The notes under the pieces: model-generated
Database searches by the model: none
Told to the model about the DNA's origin: nothing
Seen by the model: only the letters and a program-made list of their open reading frames with translations
Part shown: piece by piece, positions 7,928 to 26,741 of the stretch
Numbering within the stretch: the first letter of the stretch is position 1
Layout of the letters: each line of letters opens with the position of its first letter
Made by a program: the position numbers and the translations under genes
Source of the DNA: Aquisalimonas lutea
GTDB lineage: Bacteria; Pseudomonadota; Gammaproteobacteria; Nitrococcales; Aquisalimonadaceae
Assembly (NCBI RefSeq): GCF_030409225.1
Contig: NZ_JAUFPK010000001.1
Coordinates: forward strand, 492,191-556,190
Direction: 5' to 3'
DNA: 64,000 nt

Positions 7928-8671
7928 ATGAACGCATCCGACCAGCCGGTCGCGCTGATCACCGGGGGCGCCAACGGCATCGGCCTGGGCATCGCCCGGC
8001 GGCTGCTGCACGAGGGCTGGCGTGTCGCCGTCGTCGACGCCGACAGCGAGGCCGTGACCGCCTTGCCGCGGACCCTCGGCCACGGCGCCGGCCGGCTGGC
8101 CCCGATCCACGGCGACGTGGCCGACGAGGCCAGCGTGCGCGCCGCCGTCGGCGAGGTCATGAACCGCTTCGGCCGCATGGACGGCCTGGTCAACAACGCC
8201 GCCATCGCCGACGCGTTTACCGGGCCGGTGGAGGCCCTCGCCCTGGAGGAGTGGAACCGCCGGCTGGCGGTGAATCTCACCGGGGCGTTCCTGCTGGTGA
8301 AGCACACTGCCGCGCACCTGGCCGCGAACCGCGGCGCCGTCGTCAACATCGCCTCCACCCGGGCGCTGCAGTCGGAGCCGGACAGCGAGGCCTACGCCGC
8401 CGGCAAGGGCGGCCTGGTGGCGCTGACCCACGCCCTGGCCGTGAGCCTGTCCGGCCGCGTGCGCGTCAACGCCGTCAGCCCCGGATGGATCAGTGAGGAC
8501 AGCGACCTCGCGCCGGAAGACCATGCACAGCATCCGGCCGGGCGCGTGGGCCGTCCCGACGATGTCGCCGGGCTGTGCGCGTTCCTGCTCTCCGACGCCG
8601 CCGGCTTCATCACCGGCGAGAACATTGTGGCCGACGGCGGCATGAGCCGAAGGATGATGTACGCGGAATGA
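7928..8671 (+). CDS. SDR-family NAD(P)-dependent oxidoreductase
   Basis: A classical short-chain dehydrogenase of 247 residues. The cofactor loop is TGGANGIGLGIA (residues 13-24), an acidic residue at the end of strand 2 (VVDAD) favours NAD, the NNAA motif is present, the catalytic serine lies in NIASTRA and the YxxxK pair in YAAGKGG. The C-terminal VADGGMS is also typical. The substrate cannot be read from the sequence. The stop overlaps the start of the flavin amine oxidase (ATGA), so both probably act on one substrate, perhaps with the MFS carrier downstream. The riboswitch-linked operon runs divergently and is likely unrelated. Confidence 0.88.
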   Translation: MNASDQPVALITGGANGIGLGIARRLLHEGWRVAVVDADSEAVTALPRTLGHGAGRLAPIHGDVADEASVRAAVGEVMNRFGRMDGLVNNAAIADAFTGPVEALALEEWNRRLAVNLTGAFLLVKHTAAHLAANRGAVVNIASTRALQSEPDSEAYAAGKGGLVALTHALAVSLSGRVRVNAVSPGWISEDSDLAPEDHAQHPAGRVGRPDDVAGLCAFLLSDAAGFITGENIVADGGMSRRMMYAE

Positions 8672-9912
8672 CCGACGCAATCGATGTGCTCGTCATCGGC
8701 GCCGGCGCCGCCGGCATCGCGGCCGCGCGGGAGCTGGACGCGGCCGGCCTGCGCTACCGCGTGCTGGAAGCCGGCCGCCGCGTCGGCGGGCGCGCCTGGA
8801 CGGAGGACGACAGCCTGGGCGTGCCCTTCGACCGCGGCTGCGCCTGGTTCCACTGCGCCGACCGCAACCCCCTGCGCGTCCTGGCGGACGAGCACGGCAT
8901 CGCCTACGGCGACAATCCGGCACTGGTGTATCACGTCGGCGGCCGTTTCCTGGACGATGCCGAGGCCCGGGCCCTGCGCGCCGCCGTCGCCGGGGACACC
9001 GAGCGGCTCTGCGCCGCCGGGCGCGCGGGGCGCGACGTCCCCGCCGCCGAGCTCCTGGACCCCGCCGCCGGCCACGCCCCGGTGCGCGACTACCTGCTCA
9101 CCGCCATCAACGGCGTGCCCCCGGAGGAGTACGCCACCACGGAGGCCGCCGCCGATGACGACAGCGGCCAGGACTGGGTCGCCCGGGACGGCATCGGCAC
9201 GCTGCTGGAGCGGCTGGCGCGCCCCCTGGCCATCGACGCCGGGCGCCCGGTGACCGCGGTGGACACCGGCGGCGCCCGGGTGCGGGTCGATACGCCGGAC
9301 GGGCCGCTGACGGCACGCGCGGCGGTGCTGACCGTCTCCACGGGGGTTCTCGCCGCCGGCGCCATCCGGTTCCGTCCGGCCCTGCCGCCGGCCAAGACAC
9401 GGGCACTGGCCGGGCTGCCCATGGGGGTGGCGGAGAAGATCGCCCTGCGCTTCCCCGGCAACCCGTTCCCGTTCGCCCCCGACACCTACCTGGTGGTCCA
9501 GCCCGGTGCCGACCGGCCGGCGTTCGGCTTTCACCTGTGCCCCGGCGGTCACCCGCTGGCGGTGGGCTATGCCGGCGGTCCCCTGGCGCGATGGCTGGGC
9601 CATCAGTCCACCGAAACCGCCCGCGCGTTCGCCCTGGATTCCCTCTGCCGCGCCTTCGGCGAGCGCCTGCGAGCTCAATGCCTCGCCGCGACCCGCACGG
9701 GCTGGCTGCACGACCCCCTGACCCTGGGCAGCTACTCCGCCGCCCGGCCCGGCGCCGGTGCCGGCGTCCGGGAGAGTCTGGCCGAGCCCGTGGGCGGACA
9801 GCTGTTCTTCGCCGGCGAGGCCACCGATCCCGTGGACTTCGCCACCGTTCACGGCGCCTGGCAGTCCGGCAGACGCGCCGCCAGGGAGGCCATGACCGCG
9901 CTGGCGGGATGA
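8668..9912 (+). CDS. FAD-dependent amine oxidase family protein
   Basis: From the ATG at 8668, which overlaps the SDR stop, the protein has 414 residues. It has the N-terminal dinucleotide motif VLVIGAGAAGIAAARELDAAG followed by VLEAGRRVGGRAWT, the arginine-rich loop that holds FAD in flavin monoamine oxidases and related desaturases. A C-terminal FFAGEATDPVDFATVHGAWQSG contacts the flavin. A GSYSAARPG segment before it is also typical. No secretion signal or covalent-flavin cysteine motif is evident. The substrate (amine, amino acid or polyamine) is unknown. Confidence 0.83.
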   Translation: MTDAIDVLVIGAGAAGIAAARELDAAGLRYRVLEAGRRVGGRAWTEDDSLGVPFDRGCAWFHCADRNPLRVLADEHGIAYGDNPALVYHVGGRFLDDAEARALRAAVAGDTERLCAAGRAGRDVPAAELLDPAAGHAPVRDYLLTAINGVPPEEYATTEAAADDDSGQDWVARDGIGTLLERLARPLAIDAGRPVTAVDTGGARVRVDTPDGPLTARAAVLTVSTGVLAAGAIRFRPALPPAKTRALAGLPMGVAEKIALRFPGNPFPFAPDTYLVVQPGADRPAFGFHLCPGGHPLAVGYAGGPLARWLGHQSTETARAFALDSLCRAFGERLRAQCLAATRTGWLHDPLTLGSYSAARPGAGAGVRESLAEPVGGQLFFAGEATDPVDFATVHGAWQSGRRAAREAMTALAG

Positions 9913-9998
9913 TCCCGACCTCTACCGGACGTCCTGTCGGGTCCCAGTGGTCGATTCGATAGGATACAATCGATTTCCTTTCCGCCCTGGAGCGCACC

Positions 9999-11270
9999 AT
10001 GGCCGAGACCGCATCCCGCCCGAACATCGTTCTCATGGTGCTCGCGGGCACGTTCACGGCGCTGGTGGTGATCGTCTTCGCCCGCCTCGCCTACGGCATC
10101 CTCCTGCCGCCCATGCGCGCGGATCTGGGCCTGGACTACCAGGCGGCGGGCGGACTGGGGACGGTCACCGCCCTGGGCTACCTCGGCTTCGTGCTGGTGG
10201 GCGGCGCGGCGGCGAGCCGCTGGGGCGCGCGCCGCACGGTGGTGTTCGGCCTGATCGCGGTCACCGCCGGCTTCGCGGGCCTGAGCGCAGCAGCGAGCTA
10301 TCCGGTGATCGTGTTCCTCATGGCGCTGCTGGGCTTCGGTACCGCCTTCAGCTTCGCCCCCATGGTCTCGCTTCTCGCCACCTGGTTCCCGGAGCGGCGC
10401 GGGCTGGTCATCGGCTGCATGACCGGCGGCATCGGCGCGGGCATGCTGCTCACGGGGCTGCTGGTCCCGTGGCTGTACAGCGTCTTCGGTGACCATGGCT
10501 GGCGCGTGGCCTGGGGCGTGTTCGCCGCCGCGGCGATCGCGGCCGCGGGCCTGGTGCTGGCGTTCGTCCAGGACCCGCCGGTATCAGCGCCGGACAGCGG
10601 GCAACGGCCGCCGTCAGCCGACAAGTGGCGCATCTACGGCAACCCGCGCGTGCTCACCGTGGCCGCGGTCTACGGCATCATCGGCCTGACCTACATCGTC
10701 CAGGCGGTGTTCATGGTCAGCTTCATGGTCGAGTCCGGCTACACCGAGGCGACCGCGGGCACCTTCATGGCCATGATGGGCCTGCTGTCCGTGGCCGCCG
10801 GACCGCTCTGGGGCCTGGTCTCGGATCGCTGGGGCCGCGGCAACGCCCTCACCGCTGCCATGGCGCTGGTCACCGTCGCCATGGCGCTGCCCCTGGCGAG
10901 CCAGACGCTGCCGGCGTTCTTCCTCCATTTCCTGATCATGGGCTGCTCGGTGAACGGCATGTTCGCCCTCACCCAGGCAAGCACCACCGACCAGGTAGCG
11001 CCCCGCTACATACCCATCGCCTTCAGTTTCGCCACGCTGTTCTTCGCCGGCGGGCAGTTCGTCGGCCCCGCCCTGGCGGGCTGGCTCATCGAGACCACCG
11101 GCGACTTCCGCTCGGCGTTCGCGTTCACCTCGGCAGGGCTGGTCGTGGGCGTCTACCTGACCCTGCGCATCCGGCGCTTCCCCGCGGGGTTCGCCGTGGA
11201 GGCGGACGCGGGAGCACACGGGGCCGGTGCGGGATCGCCGCAAGGCGCGGAGTGCCAGGCCCGGGAGTGA
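9999..11270 (+). CDS. MFS transporter, YbfB/YjiJ-like
   Basis: The 423-residue product has about twelve hydrophobic segments and a hydrophilic central loop (PDSGQRPPSADKW, near residue 200), the usual MFS plan. The FARLAYGILLPPMRADLGL start and the GWGARR-like loop between helices 2 and 3 (ASRWGARRTVV) fit the YbfB/YjiJ group. The second half repeats the motif as SDRWGRGNALT. The ATG at 9999 follows GGAG. It sits 86 bp after the amine oxidase and may move the same compound; the direction of transport is not known. Confidence 0.83.
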   Translation: MAETASRPNIVLMVLAGTFTALVVIVFARLAYGILLPPMRADLGLDYQAAGGLGTVTALGYLGFVLVGGAAASRWGARRTVVFGLIAVTAGFAGLSAAASYPVIVFLMALLGFGTAFSFAPMVSLLATWFPERRGLVIGCMTGGIGAGMLLTGLLVPWLYSVFGDHGWRVAWGVFAAAAIAAAGLVLAFVQDPPVSAPDSGQRPPSADKWRIYGNPRVLTVAAVYGIIGLTYIVQAVFMVSFMVESGYTEATAGTFMAMMGLLSVAAGPLWGLVSDRWGRGNALTAAMALVTVAMALPLASQTLPAFFLHFLIMGCSVNGMFALTQASTTDQVAPRYIPIAFSFATLFFAGGQFVGPALAGWLIETTGDFRSAFAFTSAGLVVGVYLTLRIRRFPAGFAVEADAGAHGAGAGSPQGAECQARE

Positions 11271-11280
11271 CGGGCGCGGA

Positions 11281-13056
11281 TCAGCCCTGCCCCGAGGGGC
11301 GCGTGGGCGCCGCATCGGCCCCGGGGGTCAGCCGGCGGCAGGCGGTAAGCTCGCGGCGCTGACACTCGGCACACAGGGGCGTGACGCTGAACACGGCGGC
11401 GATGGCCCGCTGCGGCGAGCTGTGGATGTGGTCGTCGCCGATGGCCTCACGGAAGACCGGGTGCCGCAGGGTGGCCACGGCCGGGTCCTTGAAGCTGCAG
11501 AACCACAGGCCGCCTCCCAGGGAGCGGAAGCGCTCGGCCTCCTGGGCCAGCATCTCCGCCGCCGCCACATCGACGAACTCGACGCCGCTGCCCTCCAGCA
11601 GCACGTGGCGATAGCCGGCCTCCGTGAGCCGCGCCAGGTGGCCCTGGATGTGATCGGCCGAGCCGAAGAACAGCGGCCCGTCCACCCGCAGGATGCGCAG
11701 TTGCGGGCACTCCGGCAGCTCCCGCTTGGCGGCGTTGCGCAGGGGCATACCCGGCCGGTCCAGCATGGGCGCCACGGCCACGACGTAGGGGCGCGCGCTG
11801 CGCTTGAGGAACAGCAGCAGCGACAGCAGGACGCCGGCATAGATGGCGAACTCCAGGTCCAGGAGCAGGGTGGCCAGGAAGGTGACCGCGAGAATCATGG
11901 TCTCTTCCCGGCTGACCCGGACGATCTGCCGCAGCCGGGTGAAATCCACCAGGTTCCAGGCGATCACCAGCACCACCGCCGCCATGGCCGGCATGGGCAG
12001 GTAGGCGGTCACGCCCGGCACGGCCAGGACCACCAGCAGCAGGATGCCGGCCGCGAATACGGCGGCCAGCGGCGTCCGGGCGCCGGCCTCGTAGTTGGCG
12101 CCGGTGCGGGTGAACGAGCCCGAGGCCGCGTAGCAGGAGAACAAGCTGCCCACGATGTTGGACAGGCCCTGGCCGATGAACTCCTGGTTGCCGTCGATGC
12201 GCTGGCGCGACTGCATGCCCACGGCGCGGGCGATGGCCACCGCCTCGATCAGGGCGATCACGGCCACCGCCAGCGCCCCCGATGCCAGCTCCGGCATGGC
12301 CTGGAAGGACAGCAGATGCAGCGACGGCGGCGGCAGCTCCCCGGGGATCGCCCCCACCAGCGCGACACCGTGGCGCTCGGCACCCAGCAGCATCCCGGCG
12401 AGGCTGCCCGCGACCATGGCGATGAGCAGCCCGGGCCAGCGCGGGCGAAGGATGCGTACCAGGACGGCGCTGGCCAGGGTGACGGCGCCGATGGCCACCG
12501 CGTACGGGTTGGTCTCGCCCAGCGACGACGCGAAGGAAGCCACGGTTGCCGGGAACGAACCCGTGCTGGGGAGCTCGACCCCGAAGAAGTGGCGCAGCTG
12601 GCTGGCGGCAATCACCACGGCGGCCCCCGTGGTGAAGCCCACGACCACCGTGTGGGAGATGAAATTCACCAGCGTGCCGACCCGCACCAGGCCCAGCAGG
12701 AACTGGATCACCCCGGCCATGAAGGTCAGCGTCAGCACGTAGGGGATGAACTGCGGGCTGTCCGGGGGCACGACCCCGCTGACCACGCTGAAAACGACGA
12801 TGGAGATGGCCGCCGTCGGTCCCGACACCAGGTGCCGGGACGAGCCGAACAGCCCGGCGATCACCGGCGGGATGATCGCGGTGTACAGCCCGTACTCCGG
12901 GGGCAGCCCGGCGATCAGGGCGTAGGCGACGCCCTGCGGCAGCACGATGACCGCCCCCGTCAGCCCGGCGAGCAGGTCGGCGCGCAGGGTGCGCCCGGTC
13001 ACCCCGGGCAGCCACGCCAGGAACGGCAGCATGCGTGCGGAGAATAATCGCGCCAC
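11281..13056 (-). CDS. SulP-family anion transporter with STAS domain
   Basis: The 591-residue protein fits SLC26/SulP: an N-terminal membrane domain of many hydrophobic helices (about residues 1-400), with the conserved GLPPEYGLYTAIIPPVIAGL stretch near residue 50 and GPTAAISIVVFS after it, then a cytoplasmic STAS domain (about residues 430-560). SulP proteins move sulfate, bicarbonate, dicarboxylates or other anions. The start is a GTG at 13054-13056. It is the last gene of the ALDH - enolase-superfamily - SulP operon, seven bases after the enzyme gene, so its anion is probably a substrate or product of that pathway (sulfite or sulfate in the sulfonate model). Confidence 0.9.
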   Translation of the reverse strand: MARLFSARMLPFLAWLPGVTGRTLRADLLAGLTGAVIVLPQGVAYALIAGLPPEYGLYTAIIPPVIAGLFGSSRHLVSGPTAAISIVVFSVVSGVVPPDSPQFIPYVLTLTFMAGVIQFLLGLVRVGTLVNFISHTVVVGFTTGAAVVIAASQLRHFFGVELPSTGSFPATVASFASSLGETNPYAVAIGAVTLASAVLVRILRPRWPGLLIAMVAGSLAGMLLGAERHGVALVGAIPGELPPPSLHLLSFQAMPELASGALAVAVIALIEAVAIARAVGMQSRQRIDGNQEFIGQGLSNIVGSLFSCYAASGSFTRTGANYEAGARTPLAAVFAAGILLLVVLAVPGVTAYLPMPAMAAVVLVIAWNLVDFTRLRQIVRVSREETMILAVTFLATLLLDLEFAIYAGVLLSLLLFLKRSARPYVVAVAPMLDRPGMPLRNAAKRELPECPQLRILRVDGPLFFGSADHIQGHLARLTEAGYRHVLLEGSGVEFVDVAAAEMLAQEAERFRSLGGGLWFCSFKDPAVATLRHPVFREAIGDDHIHSSPQRAIAAVFSVTPLCAECQRRELTACRRLTPGADAAPTRPSGQG

Positions 13057-13062
13057 GGGGAC

Positions 13063-14316
13063 TCACCAGCTCCGATCGGTTACCGCTTGCGAGAGGCGCA
13101 GGGTACACCACGAGCCGGCTGCGTCCAGATCCGGCTCGACGCCGAGGCCGGGCACCGTGGACAGTGCCATGCCGCCGTCTGCGACCCGGGGGAACGGCTG
13201 CGCCAGGGTCTCACGCAGGGGATTGGCGTTGACGTCGACTTCCAGCAGGCCGTCGCCGCCCACGGCGGCCAGGGCGTGGCCCGAGGCGATCAACCCGATG
13301 CCGCCGCCGAGATAGTGCGGACAGTAGCGGCGGCCGGCACCCAGCACGTAGCGGGCCACCGGGACGCAGCGGCTCACCCCGCCCCACTTGCACAGATCCG
13401 GCTGGATGACCTGCAGCCAGCCGCCGTCCGCGGCGTCGATGAACTGCGCCTCGGTGGCCAGGTTCTCGCCGCCGGCCAGCGGCACGGGGCTGTCCCCGGC
13501 CAGGGCCCGCCATGCGTCCACCGGGGTATCCGCCGGCATGGGCTCCTCCAGCCAGCCGGCGCCCGCCTCGGCCAGCGCCGGCAGCAGCCGGCGGGCCTGC
13601 GCGGGGGTCCAGGCCTGGTTGGCGTCCACCATGAAGCCCTCGCCCGGTCCCATGGCGGCGGCGAGACGCTCGATCACGGCGCGGTCGGCATCCGGGTCGA
13701 AGCCGATCTTGATCTTGAAGGCGCTGTAGCCCGCTTCGCGGGCCCGGGCCACGGACTCCACGGCGCCGTCCGGGTTGATGCCGCTGGCATACACCGGGAC
13801 GCGCGGCTGCGCCCCGCCGGCGCCCAGGCACTGCCACAGCGGCTGCCCGGCGCGACGCGCCACCAGGTCCCAGAGGGCGACGTCGACCCCGGCGATGGCC
13901 TGGGCAATGGGACCGTACTCGCGGGTCTGCAGCGCCAGGACCCGGGTCTCCCGCTCCAGCGCCGCGAATGCGTCCACCGGCGAGGGGAACGCCCGCCCCA
14001 GCAGCCTCGGCGCCAGCACCGATGCCGCCAGGCGCCCGCGGTGCTCGGCCCCGCAGGTGGGGAAGTTGCACCAGATCTCGCCCCAGCCATGGCAGCCGTC
14101 CTCGTCCTCGATGCGGACCAGCACGGCGGGTCGGTCCGTCATGGTCCCGAAGGACGTACGCACGGGCGTGTCGATGGGCGCGCGGAAGACGTGCACGTCC
14201 AGGCGGGTGAGGGGCGGGACCTCCAGCGGGACGCCCGGGGAGGGCACGACCGCGGGCAGGGCGGCGTCACCGCTCCGCCCTGCGCCGCCCGCCTCGTGGC
14301 CTGCCGTCGGCTGCAT
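13063..14316 (-). CDS. Mandelate racemase/muconate lactonizing (enolase superfamily) enzyme
   Basis: The 417-residue protein has the capping domain followed by a TIM barrel. The K-x-K catalytic pair is visible in FKIKIGFDPDADR, the three metal ligands in MVDANQAW, WLEEPMPAD and GGENLATE, and later QPDLCKWGG and RYCPHYLGGGIG with a candidate catalytic histidine. This arrangement supports metal-assisted proton abstraction next to a carboxylate, as in acid-sugar dehydratases, racemases and cycloisomerases. The first ~35 residues look dispensable, so a start nearer LTRLDVHVF is possible. It is three bases from the ALDH gene and seven from SulP. The reaction is not determined; see findings for a sulfolactate hypothesis. 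Confidence 0.85.
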   Translation of the reverse strand: MQPTAGHEAGGAGRSGDAALPAVVPSPGVPLEVPPLTRLDVHVFRAPIDTPVRTSFGTMTDRPAVLVRIEDEDGCHGWGEIWCNFPTCGAEHRGRLAASVLAPRLLGRAFPSPVDAFAALERETRVLALQTREYGPIAQAIAGVDVALWDLVARRAGQPLWQCLGAGGAQPRVPVYASGINPDGAVESVARAREAGYSAFKIKIGFDPDADRAVIERLAAAMGPGEGFMVDANQAWTPAQARRLLPALAEAGAGWLEEPMPADTPVDAWRALAGDSPVPLAGGENLATEAQFIDAADGGWLQVIQPDLCKWGGVSRCVPVARYVLGAGRRYCPHYLGGGIGLIASGHALAAVGGDGLLEVDVNANPLRETLAQPFPRVADGGMALSTVPGLGVEPDLDAAGSWCTLRLSQAVTDRSW

Positions 14317-14319
14317 GCC

Positions 14320-15765
14320 CTAGCCTCCGGCCTGCTTGACGTACGCCGAGTGCTCGGTGGTGTAGAACTGCACCGCCGAGGGCCCGACCGAGTACGCACC
14401 GACACCGGAGCTCTTGATGCCGCCGAAGGGCATGTGATCGTCCGGGACGGTGCCGTGGTTGACGTGGAGCATGCCGTTGTCGCTCTCGTCCAGGAAGCGC
14501 TGGATCAACGCGGCATCGTTGCTGAACAGCGAGGACGTGAGACCGTAGTCGACGTCGTTGAGGATCGACAGGGCCTGATCGAAGTCCCGGTAGGGCGTGA
14601 CGGTGAGCACCGGGCCGAAGATCTCTTCCCGGGCCGCTTCCATGCCGGGGGTCACGTCGGTGAGGACCGTGGGCTGATAGAAGTGGCCCCCGGGGCAGGC
14701 CTCCACCCGGGCATGCCCGCCGCCGGTGAGCACGGCCGCGCCCTCGGCCCGGGCCCGGTCGACGAAGCCGGCCACGCGCTCCAGCTGCTCCCGGTTGATC
14801 AACGGTCCCATGGTGGTGGCCGGGTCCTGGCCGCTTCCCAGCACCACGGCCTCGGCGCGGGCCCTGAGGCCGTCCGCCACGGCGTCGTGCATGCCCGCCG
14901 CCACGATGACGCGGCTGATGGCGGTGCAGCGCTGCCCGGCGCACTGGAAGGCGGCGCCGACGACCTGGTCCAGGCAGCCGTCCAGGTCGTCCGTATCGTT
15001 GATGACCACGGCGTTCTTGCCGCCCAGCTCCAGCGACAGCTCGGCGAGGCTGCCGGCTGCGGCGGCGTAGATCGCCTTGCCGGTGGCCACGGACCCGGTG
15101 AACGTCACGCCGTGCACCCGGCGGTCGCTCACCAGCGCACCGCCGACGCTTCCGCCCCCCTGAAGGATCTGCATCACTCCGTCGGGCAGAATGCCCCTGG
15201 CGGCCTCGGCAATGAGGCAGGCGGCCGCGGGTGTGAGCTCCGAGGGTTTCAGCACGATGGCGTTGCCGTGGGCCAGCGCCGGCGCGATCTTGCGCATGGG
15301 CGTGAGGACCGGGAAGTTCCAGGGCGTGATGGCGGCGATCACGCCCCGGGGGCGACGCAGCACCATGTTCCGGCAGCCGGGTTTCTGGGCCGGCACCACG
15401 CCGCCGTGGCTGCGAACGGCCTCGCCGGCCATGAAGCGCGCCTCGCGCAGTGCCTTGCCCGTCTCGCCCCGGCCTTCCGCCAGGGGTTTGCCCTGCTCCA
15501 GGGTCACGGCATGAGCGATGGCCTCGGTCTGCTGCTCGACCGCATCCAGGAAGCGGTTTAGCAGGCGGGCGCGTTCCGCCGGCGGGTAGGCCGCCCAGCG
15601 CGCCTGGCCCAGGCGCGCGGCATCCAGGGCGGCGCCGATGCCGTCCGCCGACGTGGCCCGATACGTACCGACCGTCTCGTCCGGGGCGGCGGGATTGAAC
15701 GTGGCGAACGCCTCACCCGTGCCCGCCTGCCATTCGCCGTCGATGAGAGAGTGAAAGGTATACAT
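14320..15765 (-). CDS. NAD(P)-dependent aldehyde dehydrogenase
   Basis: A 481-residue soluble ALDH. The cofactor/substrate motif ITPWNFPVLTPMRKIAPALA lies near residue 145, the catalytic glutamate in LSLELGGKNAVV, and the catalytic cysteine in FQCAGQRCTA. Length and motifs fit the succinate-semialdehyde / alpha-ketoglutarate-semialdehyde / sulfolactaldehyde dehydrogenase group; these cannot be separated by eye. It is the first gene of a three-gene operon, with AGGAGC before the ATG, and a LacI operator lies 33 bp upstream. It could oxidise the aldehyde made by the YihU-like dehydrogenase of the same regulon. Confidence 0.9.
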   Translation of the reverse strand: MYTFHSLIDGEWQAGTGEAFATFNPAAPDETVGTYRATSADGIGAALDAARLGQARWAAYPPAERARLLNRFLDAVEQQTEAIAHAVTLEQGKPLAEGRGETGKALREARFMAGEAVRSHGGVVPAQKPGCRNMVLRRPRGVIAAITPWNFPVLTPMRKIAPALAHGNAIVLKPSELTPAAACLIAEAARGILPDGVMQILQGGGSVGGALVSDRRVHGVTFTGSVATGKAIYAAAAGSLAELSLELGGKNAVVINDTDDLDGCLDQVVGAAFQCAGQRCTAISRVIVAAGMHDAVADGLRARAEAVVLGSGQDPATTMGPLINREQLERVAGFVDRARAEGAAVLTGGGHARVEACPGGHFYQPTVLTDVTPGMEAAREEIFGPVLTVTPYRDFDQALSILNDVDYGLTSSLFSNDAALIQRFLDESDNGMLHVNHGTVPDDHMPFGGIKSSGVGAYSVGPSAVQFYTTEHSAYVKQAGG

Positions 15766-15797
15766 GCCGAGGGCTCCTGATCATTTCCACTGAACGT

Positions 15798-15811
15798 TGT
15801 AAGCGCTAACA
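15798..15811. promoter_or_regulatory. LacI-family operator O1
   Basis: The 14-mer TGTAAGCGCTAACA is a near-perfect palindrome centred on the CG of AGCGCT, the classical LacI/GntR-type operator form. It lies between the divergent ALDH operon and the LacI-family gene, 33 bp from the former and 54 bp from the latter, so it can control both. Two close matches occur upstream of the ABC transporter operon. Confidence 0.78.
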
Positions 15812-15864
15812 TCCGGATTCGAAGCAACGGACTTCCCTGAACCTGCGAGCGCCGGAATCCCGCA

Positions 15865-16896
15865 ATGGAACGCAAGTCTGCCGTACGAATGGAGGATGTC
15901 GCCCGGCTCGCGGGGGTCTCCTCGATTACCGTGTCGCGCGTGCTCAACCACCCGGACAAGGTCGCCGAGGGGACCCGCGAGCGGGTCCTGGCCGCCGTCG
16001 AGGCCACGGGCTACATTCCCAACAGCGTGGCCGGCAGTCTCGCCTCCCGGCGCACCCGGGTCATCGGGGCGCTGGTTCCGACCATTACCAACTCGATCTT
16101 CGCCGACACCATCGACGGCATGGACGATGTCCTGCGGCCGGCGGGCTATCAGCTCCTGCTGGGCGCCACGGGCTACTCGCTGGACGAGGAGAGCCGGCTG
16201 ATCAGCGCCATGCTGGCGCAGCGCCCGGCCGGCCTTCTGGCCACCGGCCTGCAGCACCAGGCCCAGGCGTACACGCTGCTGCGGGCCACGGAGATCCCCA
16301 TCGTCGAGACCTGGAACGTCGACGGCGACCCCGTGGACATGGCCGTGGGCTTCTCCAACTTCCGGGCGTGCCACGCCATGGTCACGTGCCTGGCGGAACA
16401 GGGCGCGCGCCGGATCGGGTTCGTCAGCGCTCCGACCACGGCCAACGACCGGGCGGAGCAGCGCCTGCTGGGCTACCGCCGGGCCGTGCGGGACCTGGGC
16501 CTGGACGCCGACCCGGCGCTGGAGCGCGAGGCGAAGTTCTCCTTCCACGCGGGGGCCGAACGCCTGCTGGAGCTGCTGGCGGCGCGCCCGGACGTGGAGG
16601 CCATCTTCTTCGCCAACGACATCCTGGCCCTGGGCGCGCTGTTCGAGTGCCAGCGACGGGGCATCCGCGTACCGGAGGATCTCGCCATCGCCGGCTTTGA
16701 CGACGTGGAGCTCGCCGCCCAGGTGAACCCGGGGCTGACCACGGTGCGCATCCCGCGCTACGGCATCGGCCGGCAGGCGGCCCACATGATCCTGCGCCGG
16801 ATCGAGGGCGGCGTGGTGGATCCCTCGGTGGTGGACCTGGGATTCGAGATCGTCCAGCGGGCGAGCACACCGGCCGGGTCTGCCGCCCCGGCCTGA
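15865..16896 (+). CDS. LacI-family transcriptional regulator
   Basis: The 343-residue protein has an N-terminal LacI helix-turn-helix (VRMEDVARLAGVSSITVSRV, residues 7-26) and hinge helix (VAGSLASRRTRVIGALVP), followed by a periplasmic-binding-protein-like effector domain. The recognition helix SITVSRVLN is of the GntR (gluconate repressor) subtype. It is divergent from the ALDH operon and next to the YihU-like/ABC operon. Three near-identical operators (15798, 20705, 20818) mark its likely targets. The effector is unknown; by analogy it is the imported compound or an intermediate of its breakdown. Confidence 0.93.
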   Translation: MERKSAVRMEDVARLAGVSSITVSRVLNHPDKVAEGTRERVLAAVEATGYIPNSVAGSLASRRTRVIGALVPTITNSIFADTIDGMDDVLRPAGYQLLLGATGYSLDEESRLISAMLAQRPAGLLATGLQHQAQAYTLLRATEIPIVETWNVDGDPVDMAVGFSNFRACHAMVTCLAEQGARRIGFVSAPTTANDRAEQRLLGYRRAVRDLGLDADPALEREAKFSFHAGAERLLELLAARPDVEAIFFANDILALGALFECQRRGIRVPEDLAIAGFDDVELAAQVNPGLTTVRIPRYGIGRQAAHMILRRIEGGVVDPSVVDLGFEIVQRASTPAGSAAPA

Positions 16897-16933
16897 GGCG
16901 TTCTCCCTGCCGGGTGGCGGCACGGTACGCATG

Positions 16934-17836
16934 TCAGTCGCGCCGGCGCGACGGGGCATCCAGGGCCAGCGACCGCAGCGTGGGGTACAGCGCGGTCCAG
17001 TCCTCGCGGCCGCGCCCGGCCCGGCGTGCAAGCCCGTACGCCTGGTGGGCCACGGCGCCCATCCACGACGGCGCGTCCAGCTCCGCCGCCATGGTCAGGG
17101 CCAGACCCATGTCCTTGTGCGCCAGATCGACCATAAAGCCCGGCGTCAGATCGCCCTTGAGGACCTTGGCGGGATAGGTCGTGCCCATGTGCCCCTGGCC
17201 GGCGACGGTGCCCATCATCACCTCCCGGGCCTGCTCCGGGTCCAGGCCGGAGCTCTCGGCCATGGTCAGGGACTCCGCGGTGAGAACGTTCAGGGCGATG
17301 GACATGTAGTTGTTGACCAGCTTCATGCGCTCGCCGGCGCCGACGGGGCCGCAGTGGACGATGGTATCGCCCAGGGCCTCGAGATAGGGCCGGGCGCGTT
17401 CCACGTCCGCCTGTTCGCCACCCGCCATGATCAGCAGCTTGCCGTCCACCGCGTGCTGGGAGGAACGGCCCACCGGCGCGTCGACCAGCTGGACGCCGCG
17501 CTCCGCGAGTCGCTGCGCGAAGGCATCGGTCTGGCTCGGCAGCACCGTGCTCATGTCGATGCACAGCGCCCCCTCCGACAGGCCCTCGACGGCCCCGCCG
17601 TCGCCGAACAGGGCCGCTTCCACGACGTTGCCGTTGGGCAGCATGGTGATCACGGCCGCTGCGCCCCGGGCGGCATCCGCGGGCGAGCCGGCGACGTACG
17701 CGCCGGCGGTGCCGAGGTCGGCCGCGGCATCGGCGTTGACGTCGTAGACCCGCAGGGAGAATCCCGCCCGGATCAGGTTGCGCGCCATGGGCGCGCCCAT
17801 GGTGCCCAGTCCGACGAAGCCAAGAGTAGTGGCCAT
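16934..17836 (-). CDS. Beta-hydroxyacid dehydrogenase family, YihU-like (3-sulfolactaldehyde reductase type)
   Basis: From the ATG at 17836 (AGAGGAAA upstream) the protein has 300 residues. It has the Rossmann motif GFVGLGTMGAPMARNL and the NADH-binding ITMLPNGNVV. The substrate loop reads DAPVGRSSQHA instead of the usual DAPVSGG of hydroxyisobutyrate dehydrogenases. G123-R124-S125-S126, K172, N175 and S179 line up, one residue on, with the sulfonate-binding and catalytic residues of E. coli YihU as I recall them. The C-terminal MVDLAHKDMGLAL and AGRGREDWTALYP are also YihU-like. A 4-hydroxybutyrate dehydrogenase role, once ascribed to YihU, is the main alternative. It ends the ABC transporter operon. 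Confidence 0.75.
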   Translation of the reverse strand: MATTLGFVGLGTMGAPMARNLIRAGFSLRVYDVNADAAADLGTAGAYVAGSPADAARGAAAVITMLPNGNVVEAALFGDGGAVEGLSEGALCIDMSTVLPSQTDAFAQRLAERGVQLVDAPVGRSSQHAVDGKLLIMAGGEQADVERARPYLEALGDTIVHCGPVGAGERMKLVNNYMSIALNVLTAESLTMAESSGLDPEQAREVMMGTVAGQGHMGTTYPAKVLKGDLTPGFMVDLAHKDMGLALTMAAELDAPSWMGAVAHQAYGLARRAGRGREDWTALYPTLRSLALDAPSRRRD

Positions 17837-17913
17837 TGCTTTTCCTCTGTCGATGGTCGAGCGAATTCGGACCCCGTTCCGGGACGCCGAGGCGCCCCGG
17901 AACGGGAAACGGC

Positions 17914-18930
17914 TCATCGGGCGACGACGTCCAGGTACGGCCCGGTGTGGAAGTACTCACTGGCACGGCGCGGGTTGTCGATGCCGCCGAACTCGACGAA
18001 GAAGTCGGTCACCTGATCGAGCCACTCGGTCACCGTGCCGTCCTTGTAGCGGGAGACCCATTCCTGGCTGGTGAACACCCGTTCGGCCTCGTACTGGGCC
18101 TTGAGCTGCTCCAGGCTGACGTTCTGGTAGTAGTTCTGCTGCAGCGTCGCCAGGGCCTCGTCCGGGTTGTTGACCAGGTGGTCGTTGGCGGGCACCCAGC
18201 CGCGGATGATCTTCCTGATGACATCCGGGTTGTTGCGGTAGAACTCGCCCCGCGCGGCCCAGCCGCCGACGATGGCCGCCTCCGGGTAGTATTCCGAGGC
18301 ATCCACCAGCATGCGGGCCTCCGGGCGCTGCTCCTGCACCTGGACGTTGAAGGGAACCCACAGGGCCACGGCGGACACGGCGCCGGAGATGAACGCGGTG
18401 ACCGCGTCGCTCATGCGCTGGTTGATGATCTCCACGTCGTTCTCCGGGTCCAGCCCCGCCTCGGTCAGGGCCTGGTGGAGAAAGACATGGGCGGTGGTGC
18501 CCTCGGTGGTGGCGATCTGCTTGCCCTTGAGATCCTGGATGTCGTTGATGCCGGCCTCGGGATCGGCCCAGAGCTGCGCCGTGGCCAGCTCGACGTTGTT
18601 GATGAGGAAGACCTCCCCCTGCCCCCGGGCGGGGAAGTTGGAGACCACCGCGCCGGTGGCGAGAACGTCCAGGCTGCCGCCCACCAGGGCCTGGAAGAGC
18701 TCCAGCCCGGTGGTGAACTGGGTGAACTCCATGTCCAGCCCCTCGTCGCGCCAGGTACCCATGTGATCGGCGAGCCAGATCTGGCCGTCGACAGCAAGGG
18801 TATGCAGATAGCCGACCCGCACGGTCTGCCGGGACTGGGCGAACAGCGGCGGTACGCCGCCGACGGCGTACAGCGAGGCACCGGCACCGACGCCTTTCAG
18901 GAAGTTACGGCGTGTCGTGGAATTGCTCAT
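17914..18930 (-). CDS. ABC transporter substrate-binding protein, nitrate/sulfonate/taurine type
   Basis: The 338-residue protein starts with a twin-arginine (Tat) signal, TTRRNFLKGVGAG (residues 5-17), with likely cleavage after the alanine of LFAQS. The mature part has the NMT1/SsuA/TauA plan: VRVGYLHTLAVDGQIWLA, LDMEFTQFTTGLELFQALVGGSLDVLA, and DLKGKQIATTEGTTAHVFLHQAL. Such proteins bind alkanesulfonates, taurine, nitrate or thiamine precursors. Tat export implies folding in the cytoplasm. It lies between the ATPase and the YihU-like gene, which favours an organosulfonate ligand, but the binding residues cannot be judged by eye. Confidence 0.87.
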   Translation of the reverse strand: MSNSTTRRNFLKGVGAGASLYAVGGVPPLFAQSRQTVRVGYLHTLAVDGQIWLADHMGTWRDEGLDMEFTQFTTGLELFQALVGGSLDVLATGAVVSNFPARGQGEVFLINNVELATAQLWADPEAGINDIQDLKGKQIATTEGTTAHVFLHQALTEAGLDPENDVEIINQRMSDAVTAFISGAVSAVALWVPFNVQVQEQRPEARMLVDASEYYPEAAIVGGWAARGEFYRNNPDVIRKIIRGWVPANDHLVNNPDEALATLQQNYYQNVSLEQLKAQYEAERVFTSQEWVSRYKDGTVTEWLDQVTDFFVEFGGIDNPRRASEYFHTGPYLDVVAR

Positions 18931-18959
18931 GGCTTCTCCTCCTCACGATGGGGCGCTTG

Positions 18960-19790
18960 CTACGCCTGTTGTGTTCTTGCGGCCGTGGCCGAGCGGGCCT
19001 GGTCCTCCTGGGCGGCGTACTCCCGCATGACCATGTCGCGGACCTCGCTGCGCAGCTCGGCGAACTCCGGTGCGTCGCGCAGGGCTTCCGTGCGCGGGAA
19101 CGGGAAGGGCACCTCGATCACCCGGCGGATGCGGGACGGGCGCGCGCTGATCACCAGCATCCGCGACGACAGGTAGAGTGCCTCCTCCACCGAGTGCGTG
19201 ATGAGCATGACGGTCTTGCGCACCTCGCCCATGACGTTGAGCAGCAGGTCCTGCATGGCCGTGCGGGTCTGGGCGTCCAGGGCCCCGAAGGGCTCGTCCA
19301 TGAGCAGGAACTGGGGATTCACCGCGTAGGCCCGGGCCAGGGCCAGGCGCTGGCGCATGCCGCCGGACAGGGTCTTGGGGTAGGCCTTGCGGAACTCGGC
19401 GAGCCCCATGAGCTCCATGAAGTGGTCCACGGTCCTGCGCCGTTCGGCGGCGCTGACACGGTTGGCCTTGAGCTTGAGGCCGAAGGCGATGTTGTCCTCG
19501 ACGCTGAGCCACGGAAAGACGCCATAGTCCTGGAACATCATGCCGCGCTCGGCCCCGGGCCCGCGTATGGGCTCGCCGTCGAGGGTGACCGTGCCGGCGC
19601 TCGGCTGCATGAAACCGGCCACCATGTTGAGCATGGTGGTCTTGCCGCAGCCGGAGGGGCCGACCAGCGAGATGAAGTCGCCGTCACCCACCGAGAACGA
19701 GACGTCGTCGACCACCGTGAGGGGGCCGTTGTCGGTGTCGAAGGTCTTGCTGACACCGTCGAAGACAATGCGTGTGTCACTGCTCGTCAT
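18960..19790 (-). CDS. ABC transporter ATP-binding protein, TauB/SsuB type
   Basis: A 276-residue ATPase with Walker A GPSGCGKTT, Q-loop MMFQDYGVFPWLSVEDNI, signature LSGGMRQRLALARAYAV and Walker B FLLMDEPFGALD, followed by LITHSVEEALYLSSRM. The QDYGVFPWL-type Q-loop and the PFGALD D-loop are those of the nitrate/sulfonate/taurine importers. It lies 10 bp after the permease and 29 bp before the binding protein, all on the minus strand. Confidence 0.9.
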   Translation of the reverse strand: MTSSDTRIVFDGVSKTFDTDNGPLTVVDDVSFSVGDGDFISLVGPSGCGKTTMLNMVAGFMQPSAGTVTLDGEPIRGPGAERGMMFQDYGVFPWLSVEDNIAFGLKLKANRVSAAERRRTVDHFMELMGLAEFRKAYPKTLSGGMRQRLALARAYAVNPQFLLMDEPFGALDAQTRTAMQDLLLNVMGEVRKTVMLITHSVEEALYLSSRMLVISARPSRIRRVIEVPFPFPRTEALRDAPEFAELRSEVRDMVMREYAAQEDQARSATAARTQQA

Positions 19791-19800
19791 GCCGCCCCCT

Positions 19801-20655
19801 CTAGTCGTTGCGTTCCTGCCAGCTCAGCAGGCGTCGTGTCAGCCTGCGCAGCGCGAGATCCATGGCCAGCGCGATGAAGCCGATGCAGATGATGCCCATG
19901 TAGATGGTGTCCAGCTGGAAGTACGCGGAGGCGTCCTGGATCACCGCGCCCAGCCCCTCCTGCGCCGCCACCAGCTCGGAGGCCACCAGGGTGGCCCAGG
20001 CGACCCCCAGGGCCACCCGCAGCGCCGTCAGCGCGTGCGGCACGGCCAGCGGAATGATGACCCGGTAGAAGATCTCGAAGTCCGACGCGCCCAGGGTCTG
20101 CGCCACGCGGATGTACAGCGGCGAGATCTGGCTGATGCCCTCGTACATGACGATGACGCTGGCGAAGAACGCGGCATAGAAGAGGATGACGACCTTGGCC
20201 GTCTCGCCGATGCCGAAGTAGACGATGACCAGCGGAATGAGCGCGATGGGAGGCAGCGCCCGGAAGAAGTTGATGAGCGGGTCCATGAAGCTGCGCAGGC
20301 CCTTGTACCAGCCCAGCAGGAAGCCCACCGGAACCGCGCAGGCGGTTCCCAGCGCCACACCCACGAACACGCGCTGGGTGGACATGTACATGTCGATGAG
20401 CAGCTCGCCGCGGCTGAGCATGTCCCAGAAGCGCGCGGCCACCTGCCCGGGCGTAGGGATGAGCCCGGGCTCGAAGAACCCCGAGTAGCGGATCGCGTAC
20501 CAGAAGGCCAGGACCATGAGCCACGGCCCCAGGAACATGGCGACGCGCCGCAGCCACCGCATCACCGGCACGGGCCGGGAGCGGCGGTGCGGTGCCTGGT
20601 CGCGGGCGGCCGAGCGCTCTGCGTTCCCGTGGCCTGCGGACGGGCTGACGGTCAT
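19801..20655 (-). CDS. ABC transporter permease, TauC/SsuC type
   Basis: From the ATG at 20655, preceded by GGAGGAG, the protein has 284 residues; a GTG 24 bases upstream is less likely. It has six hydrophobic segments and the inner-membrane EAA loop near VYEGISQISPLYIRVAQTLGA, which docks the ATPase. A polar N-terminus of about 25 residues precedes helix 1. It is the first gene of the operon permease - ATPase - binding protein - YihU-like enzyme, downstream of two LacI operators. Confidence 0.9.
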   Translation of the reverse strand: MTVSPSAGHGNAERSAARDQAPHRRSRPVPVMRWLRRVAMFLGPWLMVLAFWYAIRYSGFFEPGLIPTPGQVAARFWDMLSRGELLIDMYMSTQRVFVGVALGTACAVPVGFLLGWYKGLRSFMDPLINFFRALPPIALIPLVIVYFGIGETAKVVILFYAAFFASVIVMYEGISQISPLYIRVAQTLGASDFEIFYRVIIPLAVPHALTALRVALGVAWATLVASELVAAQEGLGAVIQDASAYFQLDTIYMGIICIGFIALAMDLALRRLTRRLLSWQERND

Positions 20656-20704
20656 GGGCAACTCCTCCTCTCCCTGCACCGCCGGCGATCTGTCGTCACC
20701 TCGA

Positions 20705-20718
20705 TGGCAGCGCTAACA
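20705..20718. promoter_or_regulatory. LacI-family operator O2
   Basis: TGGCAGCGCTAACA matches operator O1 at 11 of 14 positions and keeps the AGCGCTAACA half. It lies 50 bp upstream of the permease ATG, where it would block the operon's promoter or early elongation. Confidence 0.65.
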
Positions 20719-20817
20719 TTACATTGTTATTCGTTTCCGTCGCCTCTCCGGGCGGCGCGTTTCGTCATCGGATTCATGCCGGCTCCGCTGTTCCGGATCG
20801 GCCGGACATGCAATGAA

Positions 20818-20831
20818 TGTTAGCGCAAACA
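20818..20831. promoter_or_regulatory. LacI-family operator O3
   Basis: TGTTAGCGCAAACA matches operator O1 at 12 of 14 positions. It lies 113 bp (centre to centre) upstream of O2, in the 225-bp gap before the permease. Two operators at this distance would allow a DNA loop, as in other LacI-family systems. Confidence 0.68.
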
Positions 20832-20880
20832 TTTAGCAACCGGACAAGCGCGCTGTCAACCGGAAATGCCACCGCGGTTG

Positions 20881-21663
20881 TCAGCGCTGCCCGGCGAGGA
20901 AAGCCGTGAGCATGTCCGCCACCAGCGCGGGCTGCTCGACGCACGGCAGATGTGCGGCTTCGGGGATGATACGGATGCGCGCGTCGCGGATTCTCTCCAC
21001 CAGCGCCTCGGCGGCGGAGACCGGTGTCCCGGGGTCGTCCTCGCCGACGATCACCAGGGCGGGGACGTCGATGGCCGCGGCCATGGGCTCGAGATCCATC
21101 TCCGCGATGGCGTCGCAGCAGCCGGCGTAGCCGGTGGGCGAGGTGCGCAGGAACATGTTGCGGATACCGGCGACCGTGGGCGTATCGCGGAAGGCGGCCG
21201 TGAACCAGCGCTCCATGGTGCCGTCCGCCAGGCCCTCGAGCCCCTCCGCGCGCACCTGGCGGGCGCGCTCCCGCCACATTTCGGGCTCCGGCATGCGCAT
21301 GGTGGTGTCGCACAGCGTCACGCTGGCCAGCCGCTCGCCGTGGGCACCGGCCAGCTGCTGGCCGACCATGCCGCCGATGGACAAGCCGCAGAAGTGCACC
21401 TGATCCAGCTCCAGGTGGTCCAGCAGGGCAATGCAGTCGTCGGCCAGGCCGGCCATGCTGTAGGAGCGCGGGGGCGCGGTGGTGAGACCATGGCCGCGCA
21501 TGTCGTAGCGCAGGATCCGGTAGCGGTCACCCAGCCGGGCGGCCATCGCGTCCCACATGCGGAAATCGGTGCCCAGGGAGTTGGCGAACATGATCACCGG
21601 GGCATCGGCCGGGCCTTCCAGGGCGTAATGGATGACGCCGTCGTCGTTGTGCAGGAATTGCAT
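20881..21663 (-). CDS. Alpha/beta hydrolase, 3-oxoadipate enol-lactonase-like
   Basis: The 260-residue protein has the alpha/beta-hydrolase fold: the nucleophile elbow is CGLSIGGMVGQ, the acid lies in VIVGEDDPGTPV and the histidine in IIPEAAHLPCVEQP. The MFANSLGTDFRMWD start and the GLSIGGM elbow resemble PcaD enol-lactonases, but no other protocatechuate genes are present. It is 11 bp downstream of the dienoyl-CoA isomerase gene on the same strand, so a thioesterase or lactonase role in the acyl-CoA pathway is possible. Confidence 0.82.
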   Translation of the reverse strand: MQFLHNDDGVIHYALEGPADAPVIMFANSLGTDFRMWDAMAARLGDRYRILRYDMRGHGLTTAPPRSYSMAGLADDCIALLDHLELDQVHFCGLSIGGMVGQQLAGAHGERLASVTLCDTTMRMPEPEMWRERARQVRAEGLEGLADGTMERWFTAAFRDTPTVAGIRNMFLRTSPTGYAGCCDAIAEMDLEPMAAAIDVPALVIVGEDDPGTPVSAAEALVERIRDARIRIIPEAAHLPCVEQPALVADMLTAFLAGQR

Positions 21664-21674
21664 CGTCGTCTCCT

Positions 21675-22529
21675 CTACTCATCCGGATCGGCAAGCGGCG
21701 GCCGCACCGGGGGAAGGTCGGCGAACTCCCCCGGGCGCTTCTCGGCGTTCGCCCGCAGGGCTTCCCGGATCTCGTCGTGCTGGAGCATGCTGGCGTTCCA
21801 GACCCCGACGTAGTCAAGCGTCTCCGCCACCGAGTGATCCCGGGCGTGGTTGGCCATGCGCTTGCAGCCGTGGATGGCCAGGGGCGGCTTGGCGGCGATC
21901 TCCCGGGCGATGGCGAGGACGCCTTCGAGCATCTCGTCGTGCCCGCCGTAGACCCGGTTGACCAGTCCCGCCGCCTGCGCCTCCGCAGCCGGCATGCGCC
22001 GGCCCGTGTAGGCGAGCTCCCGTGCCACACCCTCGGGCATGAGCTTGAAGATGCGCGGGAACGTGCCGACGTCGGCGGTCATGCCGATATTGATCTCGTG
22101 GATGGTCAGGAACGCATCCTCGGTGGCGTAGCGCATGTCGCACGCCGTCACCAGGTCCACGCCGCCGCCGATGCAGCCGCCCTGGATAGCAGCGAGCACG
22201 GGAATCCGGCAGCGCTCCAGGCAGGTGAACACCTCCTGCATGCCGCGCACGGTGTCCTGGAAGCGCAGCCCCGCCTGGCGCCGGGTCACGGGATCGTCGG
22301 CGTCCGCGGCGATGGCATCGAATACGGCGAGATCCAGCCCGGCGCTGAAGTGCGGCCCCGTGGACGAGATCACGATGACCCGCGCGCGGGCGTTGTCGTC
22401 GATGTCCCGGACGATTTCCGGCAGTTCCCGCCAGAACGCCGCAATCATGCTGTTGCGCTTGTCCGGCCGGTTGAGCACCACGTGGGCGACCCGGTCGGTA
22501 ATGGTGACCTCGAAACAGGTGTAGCTCAT
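21675..22529 (-). CDS. Crotonase family, delta3,5-delta2,4-dienoyl-CoA isomerase-like
   Basis: The 284-residue crotonase has the oxyanion-hole motifs HFSAGLDLAVF and GGCIGGGVDLVTACDMRYA. The key acids match the eukaryotic dienoyl-CoA isomerase ECH1: an aspartate in GGGVDL, a glutamate in HEINIGMTADVG and an aspartate eight residues later. A plain enoyl-CoA hydratase would show two glutamates at the hydratase positions instead. The enzyme shifts 3,5-dienoyl-CoA to 2,4-dienoyl-CoA during breakdown of unsaturated fatty acids with odd-position double bonds. It is followed by the alpha/beta hydrolase and preceded by two acyl-CoA dehydrogenases. Confidence 0.8.
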   Translation of the reverse strand: MSYTCFEVTITDRVAHVVLNRPDKRNSMIAAFWRELPEIVRDIDDNARARVIVISSTGPHFSAGLDLAVFDAIAADADDPVTRRQAGLRFQDTVRGMQEVFTCLERCRIPVLAAIQGGCIGGGVDLVTACDMRYATEDAFLTIHEINIGMTADVGTFPRIFKLMPEGVARELAYTGRRMPAAEAQAAGLVNRVYGGHDEMLEGVLAIAREIAAKPPLAIHGCKRMANHARDHSVAETLDYVGVWNASMLQHDEIREALRANAEKRPGEFADLPPVRPPLADPDE

Positions 22530-22558
22530 GCCCGCATTCCCCGTCGTCGTATCATGGG

Positions 22559-23701: not shown

Positions 23702-23710
23702 GCCTGTTCC

Positions 23711-25106: not shown

Positions 25107-26741
<1,635 letters not shown>

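Follow-up and report, generated by a model that had tools for sequence, protein, structure and literature searches.

Eight genes between positions 11281 and 20679 of the window (the whole 64,000-nucleotide stretch of Aquisalimonas lutea DNA that was analysed) are arranged as two operons around one lacI gene, and together they probably form a LacI-repressed catabolic regulon for a three-carbon (C3) sulfonate. The substrate is most likely 2,3-dihydroxypropane-1-sulfonate (DHPS). One operon (20679 down to 16934, minus strand) encodes, in order, an ABC permease, its ATPase, a substrate-binding protein and a YihU-like dehydrogenase. The other (15765 down to 11281, minus strand) encodes an aldehyde dehydrogenase (ALDH), an enzyme of the mandelate racemase subgroup of the enolase superfamily, here called MRen, and a SulP-family anion permease; lacI is divergent from it (Table 1). 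A preliminary description had placed the same eight genes in this part of the window. All eight were verified as open reading frames (ORFs), and the families were upheld by NCBIfam and Pfam.

The best explanation of the whole, to which we give a probability of roughly 0.5, is a DHPS regulon with two oxidations, a lyase and an exporter. The ABC importer would take up DHPS, the YihU-like enzyme would oxidise it to 3-sulfolactaldehyde, and the ALDH would convert this to 3-sulfolactate. MRen would then abstract the proton alpha to the carboxylate and eliminate the beta-sulfonate as sulfite, leaving pyruvate, while SulP would export sulfite or sulfate and a pathway metabolite would release LacI. 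The proposed MRen reaction is that of SuyAB carried out by another fold, with the sulfonate in place of the beta-hydroxyl lost in dehydratases. That MRen is such a C-S lyase, a non-homologous stand-in for SuyAB, is a tentative assignment with a little under an even chance of being right. The starting points are all drawn from sequence: the gene set, its conservation, the operators, the YihU subfamily, and the fact that no SuyB, HpsN or Xsc was found. From these we infer the substrate, the direction of each step and the role of MRen.

Operators and conservation of the regulon

Three LacI operators, ATGTTAGCGC(A/T)AACAT-like, were found, which bears out the earlier report of near-identical LacI operators in both control regions. 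With up to three mismatches allowed, the pattern gave six strand-wise matches in the window against a chance mean of 0.09, and none of 100 shuffles reached six. Across the 4.2-Mb genome, at up to two mismatches, only the same three places matched, and a reversed control pattern matched nowhere. Because the operators are confined genome-wide to these control regions, LacI is very likely a dedicated local regulator.

MRen orthologues were sought in 59 genomes, the organism's own included. Four others carry MRen at 62-67% identity, and all remaining matches are at 36% or below. The four loci (L101-L104) share gene content and order with the window, at identities of 62-88%; SulP alone varies, being present in three of them. 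Moreover, three operators stand at the corresponding positions in every one of these loci, one to three mismatches from ATGTTAGCGCTAACAT, the paired upstream operators being 88-101 bp apart. No operator with up to three mismatches occurs in 1,355,895 bases of 80 other loci. The gene set, whose recurrence had been suggested as a check, is thus present in four of 58 related genomes together with its operators, and the sites in the window and in the orthologous loci support control of both operons by one LacI, as first supposed.

Two of these relatives also have a PF03601 putative sulfate exporter about 5 kb from MRen (L103, 3140-4234; L104, about 15389-16315). They are 47-48% identical to one in a suy cluster of Paracoccus seriniphilus, and that of L103 adjoins a MOFRL/DUF4147 (glycerate-kinase-like) gene.

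Proposed oxidising enzymes and transporters, and the search for SuyB, HpsN and Xsc

The YihU-like protein passes the cut-off of the sulfolactaldehyde 3-reductase equivalog NF012005 (385 bits against 348), and the next models, for tartronate semialdehyde reductase and hydroxyisobutyrate dehydrogenase, score 235 and 208 bits. Its closest solved chain is 6sm7, the 3-sulfolactaldehyde reductase YihU of E. coli, at 300 bits, with the next at 189. The motifs PVGRSS (PVGRTS in E. coli) and NNYMS, which we take to be DHPS contacts, are found in the window protein and its four orthologues; 1vpd, 3cky and 3w6u have PVSGG or PVTGG instead, and other residues at the NNYMS position. Score, structure and motifs support the earlier assignment to the YihU type and not to generic hydroxyisobutyrate dehydrogenases. 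The window enzyme shares with E. coli YihU about 50% identity (49-54% to nine enterobacterial matches among 13 plasmid records), the equivalog score and the substrate motifs. It differs in adjoining an importer and an ALDH, and would therefore probably be used as a DHPS dehydrogenase.

YihU homologues were also met elsewhere. Plasmid 2 of the arsenite-oxidising strain NT-25 (L111, 1-11541) has a YihU-like gene (47%, PVGG for PVGR) with gabD, a TRAP importer, TauE, a PF03601-type exporter (50% identical to the suy-cluster one) and fumarase/fumarate-reductase-like genes; neither MRen nor SuyAB is annotated in this stretch, which is possibly another C3-sulfonate route with a different lyase. In E. 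coli pSTEC639_1 (L120, 9888-10804) no gene is listed between yihU and yihS, where yihT would be expected, and the longest open piece found in this gap is 184 amino acids.

For the ALDH, none of the best 25 NCBIfam models listed reaches its cut-off. Its best solved relatives are succinate-semialdehyde dehydrogenases, with 8c54, which we take to be GabD of Rhizobium leguminosarum, in seventh place. Arg171 and Arg289 are proposed to bind the sulfonate in the sulfolactaldehyde dehydrogenase of R. leguminosarum (PMC10599462); in the window enzyme the Arg171 equivalent is kept and the Arg289 equivalent is Gln. Six further ALDHs, taken from other loci with MRen or YihU, were compared: the second position is Arg in L109, L110, NT-25 and L057, both arginines are present in L110 and NT-25, and the second is absent in L049 and L024.

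The importer proteins match their Pfam domains and have Ssu and Tau models as their nearest in NCBIfam, with every cut-off missed (SsuA by 7 bits). The importer family was set aside as proof of a sulfonate by itself, being too broad. The binding protein has a TIGR01409 twin-arginine signal over cut-off and may be exported folded. SulP passes TIGR00815 (407 bits, cut-off 380). It is the last gene of its operon, 6 bp after MRen, and is proposed as a sulfite/sulfate exporter; two more SulP matches lie elsewhere in the genome.

The closest known system is that of Desulfovibrio sp. DF1. A candidate SsuA/TauT-family importer was found there by proteomics, DhpA (COG2084) and the ALDH SlaB oxidise DHPS, and SuyAB cleaves sulfolactate (PMC6278857). 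The likeness extends to the COG2084 dehydrogenase, the ALDH, the three-step logic and, probably, the importer family, and together with the YihU-type dehydrogenase it supports the earlier choice of a C3 sulfonate as likeliest substrate. DhpA is 27% identical to YihU according to the same text, as against 49-54% to enteric YihU for the window enzyme. LacI control and SulP are features of the window; moreover, Desulfovibrio DF1 has SuyAB, whereas the window set was found without it and MRen would stand in its place. The earlier suggestion of a new route needs correcting, since import and both oxidations were already known from DF1. What is new is a candidate sulfite-lyase of the enolase superfamily, put forward here with slightly less than even confidence. 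The HpsOPN-SuyAB route of Cupriavidus and Roseobacteraceae has the same proposed substrate and intermediate, but neither HpsN nor SuyB turned up in the five genomes that carry the cluster.

SuyAB is a member of the UxaA/GarD superfamily (PMC6336799). The SuyB domain PF04295 is found in none of the five genomes; as a positive control, a UxaA-family protein of P. seriniphilus taken as SuyB, beside hps/slc-like genes, scores 111 bits with it. Each genome has a single HisD, 32-35% identical to an hps-linked HisD homologue taken as HpsN, and Xsc is over cut-off in none, with sub-cut-off relatives in all five. What had been said of the window, that SuyAB and HpsN are missing from it, thus holds for five whole genomes as regards SuyB and HpsN, and Xsc can be added. 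Among the ten window proteins scanned the YihU-like protein was the only sulfosugar enzyme; YihT and YihQ were not searched for genome-wide. Inside the regulon, MRen is the sole candidate for cleaving the C-S bond. The preliminary description had ended the route in cleavage and anion export, which is plausible; it had left the cleaving gene unnamed, and the comparative evidence points to MRen.

MRen and its genomic contexts

MRen has the fold domains and the KxK, D/E/E and D-H residues of the mandelate racemase subgroup, in which an enediolate is formed next to a carboxylate; in dehydratases the beta-hydroxyl then leaves. K201/K203, D231, E257-258, E284, D307 and H334 are kept in at least 90% of 94 rows, presumably in their catalytic roles. 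A GAEHR loop is conserved as well. MRen reaches no NCBIfam cut-off, and against known dehydratases of the superfamily (talarate/galactarate, galactonate, arabinonate and others) its best score is 107 bits, the cut-off being 500. The closest solved relative, 3ddm (411 bits), belongs to a family named only as putative mandelate racemase/muconate lactonizing enzyme (MR/MLE), with no function to transfer.

Ninety-four MRen loci were compared, made up of the best 80 of 409 GTDB relatives, the four orthologous loci and 10 of 16 plasmid matches; 16 of them are shorter than 12 kb. TauE/TSUP genes occur in seven; in six of these the gene is at most 450 bp away from MRen, and in several it overlaps MRen. 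These six represent about three lineages: four Rhizobiaceae plasmids of one clade, Sulfitobacter THAF37 and one alphaproteobacterial metagenome-assembled genome (MAG), with examples in Shinella, Rhizobium, Neorhizobium and Sulfitobacter. Seeding this search with MRen neighbours made it circular, so it was run again with 30 TauE and 19 SulP seeds from elsewhere in ten genomes; the same seven TauE/TSUP and five SulP matches came back, with no TauE in 11 further loci. At the density of TauE in those genomes (63 per about 49 Mb) we estimate that chance would put about two in the 94 loci (1.6 Mb in all) and well under one next to MRen. SulP adjoins MRen in the window and three relatives, and lies 7.1 kb (L109) and 2.1 kb (L084) away on the other strand in two more.

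Other neighbours point towards sulfosugars and sulfolactate. The solved chain closest to the kinases that stand beside MRen in Neorhizobium (L119) and a member of the Granulosicoccaceae (L057) is sulfofructose kinase 7ag6 (220 and 203 bits); the next solved chains score 157 and 163 bits, and ribokinase 88 and 107. The MRen-adjacent kinases of these two loci and of Shinella L110 are 39-46% identical to YihV, and the Shinella locus also has TSUP and the ALDH with both proposed arginines. The LacD-type aldolase was rejected as a sulfofructose-phosphate (SFP) aldolase, as it scores 69 bits to YihT and 483 to the unnamed DUF2090 protein 8tnf, and so the kinase alone supports a sulfosugar at those loci. 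In Chelativorans (L033) MRen closes an operon after TctC and two TctA/TctB-like genes. This TctC shares 58% identity with its counterpart next to SuyAB in P. seriniphilus, and the stretch also has a SuyA homologue (69%).

The L033 locus is of the sulfofucose type and contains a second MR/MLE gene, taken as SfcF, that is 27-28% identical to the window MRen. In Paracoccus wurundjeri SfcF is the sulfogalactonate dehydratase of a sulfofucose pathway whose proposed route ends via sulfolactate and sulfite (PMC12421959). Like MRen, SfcF has the domains PF13378 and PF02746, and its substrate is a sulfonated acid, as is proposed for MRen; it removes water from sulfogalactonate, however, and the desulfonase proposed there is SuyAB.

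Context tags were assigned by tblastn within 9 kb, a search that misses divergent genes. Across the 94 loci they recorded an orthologous Ssu-type importer in 33, a GMC dehydrogenase in 51, an ALDH in 33, a sulfatase in 25, AraD/HpcH in 11, TSUP in seven, SulP in five, a LacD-type aldolase in five, YihU in four and nothing in nine. The usual module seems to be importer, alcohol oxidation and MRen, and the window clade seems to have YihU for GMC and LacI for GntR. In a tree built from the window and 93 of the 94 loci (one row was left out because of its length; root arbitrary), the sister group of the YihU clade has TSUP, LacD and fumarase contexts (92/80) and also holds the AraD/HpcH loci L117 and L118.

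When 398 genomes from across the phylum were sampled in a second draw, 12 of them (the organism's own included) had MRen at E <= 1e-80, at 13 places. This draw is not independent, as L051 and L060 account for two of the 12 other places, being the same DNA. A kinase and LacD stand beside MRen at three places, all in one genus (g130), and the orthologous Ssu-type permease occurs at three places in short flanks. Wide flanks, taken for 11 of the 12 other places, added a fourth importer (L159), chloride-channel-like matches (L155), sulfatases (L155, L157) and AraD/HpcH (L152).

Two plasmid settings deserve separate description. In P. seriniphilus p420573 (L131/L118) a cluster with hps-like genes (TRAP, hisD-like, short-chain dehydrogenase, alcohol dehydrogenase), suyAB-like genes (two of the UxaA family), slcC/comC-like dehydrogenases and a sulfate exporter adjoins an MRen gene in a sugar-acid-like setting (AraD, TctABC, LacI). 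In Sulfitobacter THAF37 pTHAF37_b (L116, 4150-18119) and in L039, MRen is found with TctCBA-type genes, class-I fumarase-like subunits and a thiamine-pyrophosphate enzyme, the last judged by eye in L039; TauE and a succinate-dehydrogenase-like complex are in L116 only. By analogy with succinate, fumarate and malate, these loci could be a route from 3-sulfopropionate via sulfoacrylate and sulfolactate to pyruvate and sulfite. A P. wurundjeri cluster with fumarate/tartrate genes and TauE (cluster 3) is induced on sulfofucose (PMC12421959).

Coordinates of the regulon are collected in Table 1. The ORF list and alignments judged by eye make starts at about 17836 for the YihU-like gene and about 20655 for the permease likelier. 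The flanks 20881-25171 and 7928-11270 were set aside as regulon members because neither has a LacI operator. The former, on the same strand, has a PcaD-like lactonase (304 bits, cut-off 256) followed, by eye, by an enoyl-CoA hydratase and two acyl-CoA dehydrogenases. A sigma-70-like promoter scan of 15600-21000 gave no site against 0.4 expected and is uninformative.

Table 1. Genes and LacI operators of the putative sulfonate regulon (positions in the window)
Feature	Position	Strand	Evidence
SulP-family anion permease with STAS domain	11281..13056	-	TIGR00815; PF00916 and STAS
MRen, mandelate-racemase-subgroup enolase-superfamily enzyme	13063..14316	-	PF13378 and PF02746
Aldehyde dehydrogenase (ALDH)	14320..15765	-	PF00171
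LacI operator O1, between divergent ALDH and lacI	15797..15812	.	kept in L101-L104
LacI-family repressor, GntR/IdnR-like	15865..16896	+	PF00356; NF052440, 350 bits
YihU-like dehydrogenase	16934..17917	-	NF012005, 385 bits; best PDB 6sm7
SsuA/TauA-type substrate-binding protein, twin-arginine signal	17914..18930	-	PF09084; TIGR01728; TIGR01409
ABC ATPase, Tau/nitrate/Ssu type	18960..19790	-	PRK11248, 243 bits (cut-off 357)
ABC permease, TauC/SsuC type	19801..20679	-	PF00528; PRK10160, 182 bits (cut-off 342)
LacI operator O2, near permease start	20704..20719	.	pattern match, kept in relatives
LacI operator O3, best match, 113 bp further upstream	20817..20832	.	pattern match, kept in relatives

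Competing explanations and significance

Several observations weigh against a DHPS regulon ending in an MRen lyase. We know of no activity for any member of the MRen family. Its exporter linkage is a minority pattern: 83 of the 94 loci lack TSUP and SulP in the stretch examined, neither was found at the 11 wide loci of the second draw, and SulP is not beside the cluster in L102. Both are common families, with 63 TauE and 36 SulP matches in ten genomes, and the TSUP-bearing plasmids L115 and L119 also carry sulfatases. Beside the kinase-aldolase-MRen operons of L153, L154 and L156 neither an ALDH nor TSUP was found. Because of its sulfatase and sugar-acid contexts the family is not uniformly one of sulfonate lyases and has more than one job, and the MRen of sugar-acid loci is 49-57% identical to that of the window, like most others. 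As for the remaining enzymes, YihU is promiscuous, the NT-25 homologue lacks the Arg of PVGR, the binding protein scores 156 bits against the SsuA cut-off of 163.5, and the window ALDH keeps one of the two arginines proposed for sulfolactaldehyde, a point that may also be read as neutral.

The sulfatases suggest sulfate esters as substrates in many relatives, and it is conceivable, though unlikely, that the window too handles a sulfate ester or a sulfur-free polyol or hydroxy acid, oxidised and then dehydrated or epimerised by MRen in the manner of sugar-acid dehydratases. In relatives, most of them Burkholderiales, importers orthologous to that of the window (54-75% identity) go with a GMC dehydrogenase, ALDH and MRen; MRen, TSUP and sulfatases occur together on Rhizobium and Neorhizobium plasmids, where TSUP, like SulP here, could export sulfate; and 25 of the 94 loci have a sulfatase within 9 kb and 11 have AraD/HpcH. 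The window LacI, moreover, is nearest to gluconate regulators, but both models are missed (NF052440, 350 bits, cut-off 400; NF047913, 257 bits, cut-off 500), and a gluconate regulator was set aside on these GntR/IdnR cut-offs. The alcohol dehydrogenase of the window clade is, however, of the YihU type. The five cluster-bearing genomes hold seven sulfatase-domain matches, and the five examined are at most 33% identical to MRen-linked sulfatases; four were scanned, giving choline-sulfatase over cut-off in two genomes (G000, G016) and PehA-like matches below cut-off in two (G000, G034). Nor is a sulfatase annotated within 9 kb of the exporter-linked MRen in Shinella (two plasmids) or THAF37. Less probable again is that the regulon serves a C3 sulfonate but MRen acts as a sulfolactate racemase in the role of SlcC/ComC, carrying out the mandelate racemase reaction on a different alpha-hydroxy acid, with an unrecognised lyase elsewhere or sulfolactate exported. 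Both sides needed for 1,1-proton transfer, Lys and His/Asp, are retained in MRen, and L033 has MRen together with its SuyA homologue; a racemase pair, SlcC/ComC, has been proposed for pathways of this kind. Because SuyB is in none of the five genomes, racemisation alone leads nowhere, and the adjacency of MRen to exporters fits release of an inorganic anion.

A route through 4-hydroxybutyrate or a similar semialdehyde to succinate, the alternative named in the preliminary description, would use the YihU-like enzyme and the ALDH and leave MRen and SulP unrelated. YihU also acts on 4-hydroxybutyrate, the ALDH has succinate-semialdehyde dehydrogenases as nearest solved relatives, and some SulP proteins carry dicarboxylates (the DauA model match is below cut-off). 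This has a small chance only, as it would leave the conserved operon of ALDH, MRen and SulP and the links of MRen to exporters unexplained, and MRen is accompanied by an ALDH well beyond this clade (33 of 94 loci). Smaller still is the chance that the pathway runs in reverse to make or excrete DHPS or sulfolactate. YihU is a reductase in E. coli sulfoglycolysis, but here a binding-protein-dependent importer shares its operon, LacI represses, and no other sulfosugar enzyme turned up in the window scan.

The literature sampled names one sulfolactate lyase, SuyAB, of the UxaA/GarD family, and in the open-access literature searched no paper was found that links the enolase superfamily to sulfolactate or to C-S cleavage. 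A broader proposal, somewhat more doubtful than that for the window enzyme itself, is that the MRen-like family cleaves the C-S bond of 3-sulfolactate, and perhaps of other beta-sulfocarboxylates, by abstracting the alpha-proton with the help of a metal and eliminating sulfite. The SuyAB reaction would then have been solved a second time by unrelated enzymes, acting after DHPS oxidation in the window and, on some plasmids and in some MAGs, after Embden-Meyerhof-Parnas-like sulfosugar modules and fumarase/succinate-dehydrogenase-like ones. Surveys of organosulfur metabolism keyed on SuyAB would miss genomes with another lyase. If the assignment is true, MRen carriers in Burkholderiales, Rhizobiales, Rhodobacterales and Gammaproteobacteria become countable, and an uncharacterised branch of a superfamily studied for the evolution of function would gain a concrete reaction that is easy to assay. 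C3 sulfonates of this kind are made by algae and plants, and an unexpected type of C-S-cleaving enzyme would bear on the recycling of organic sulfur.

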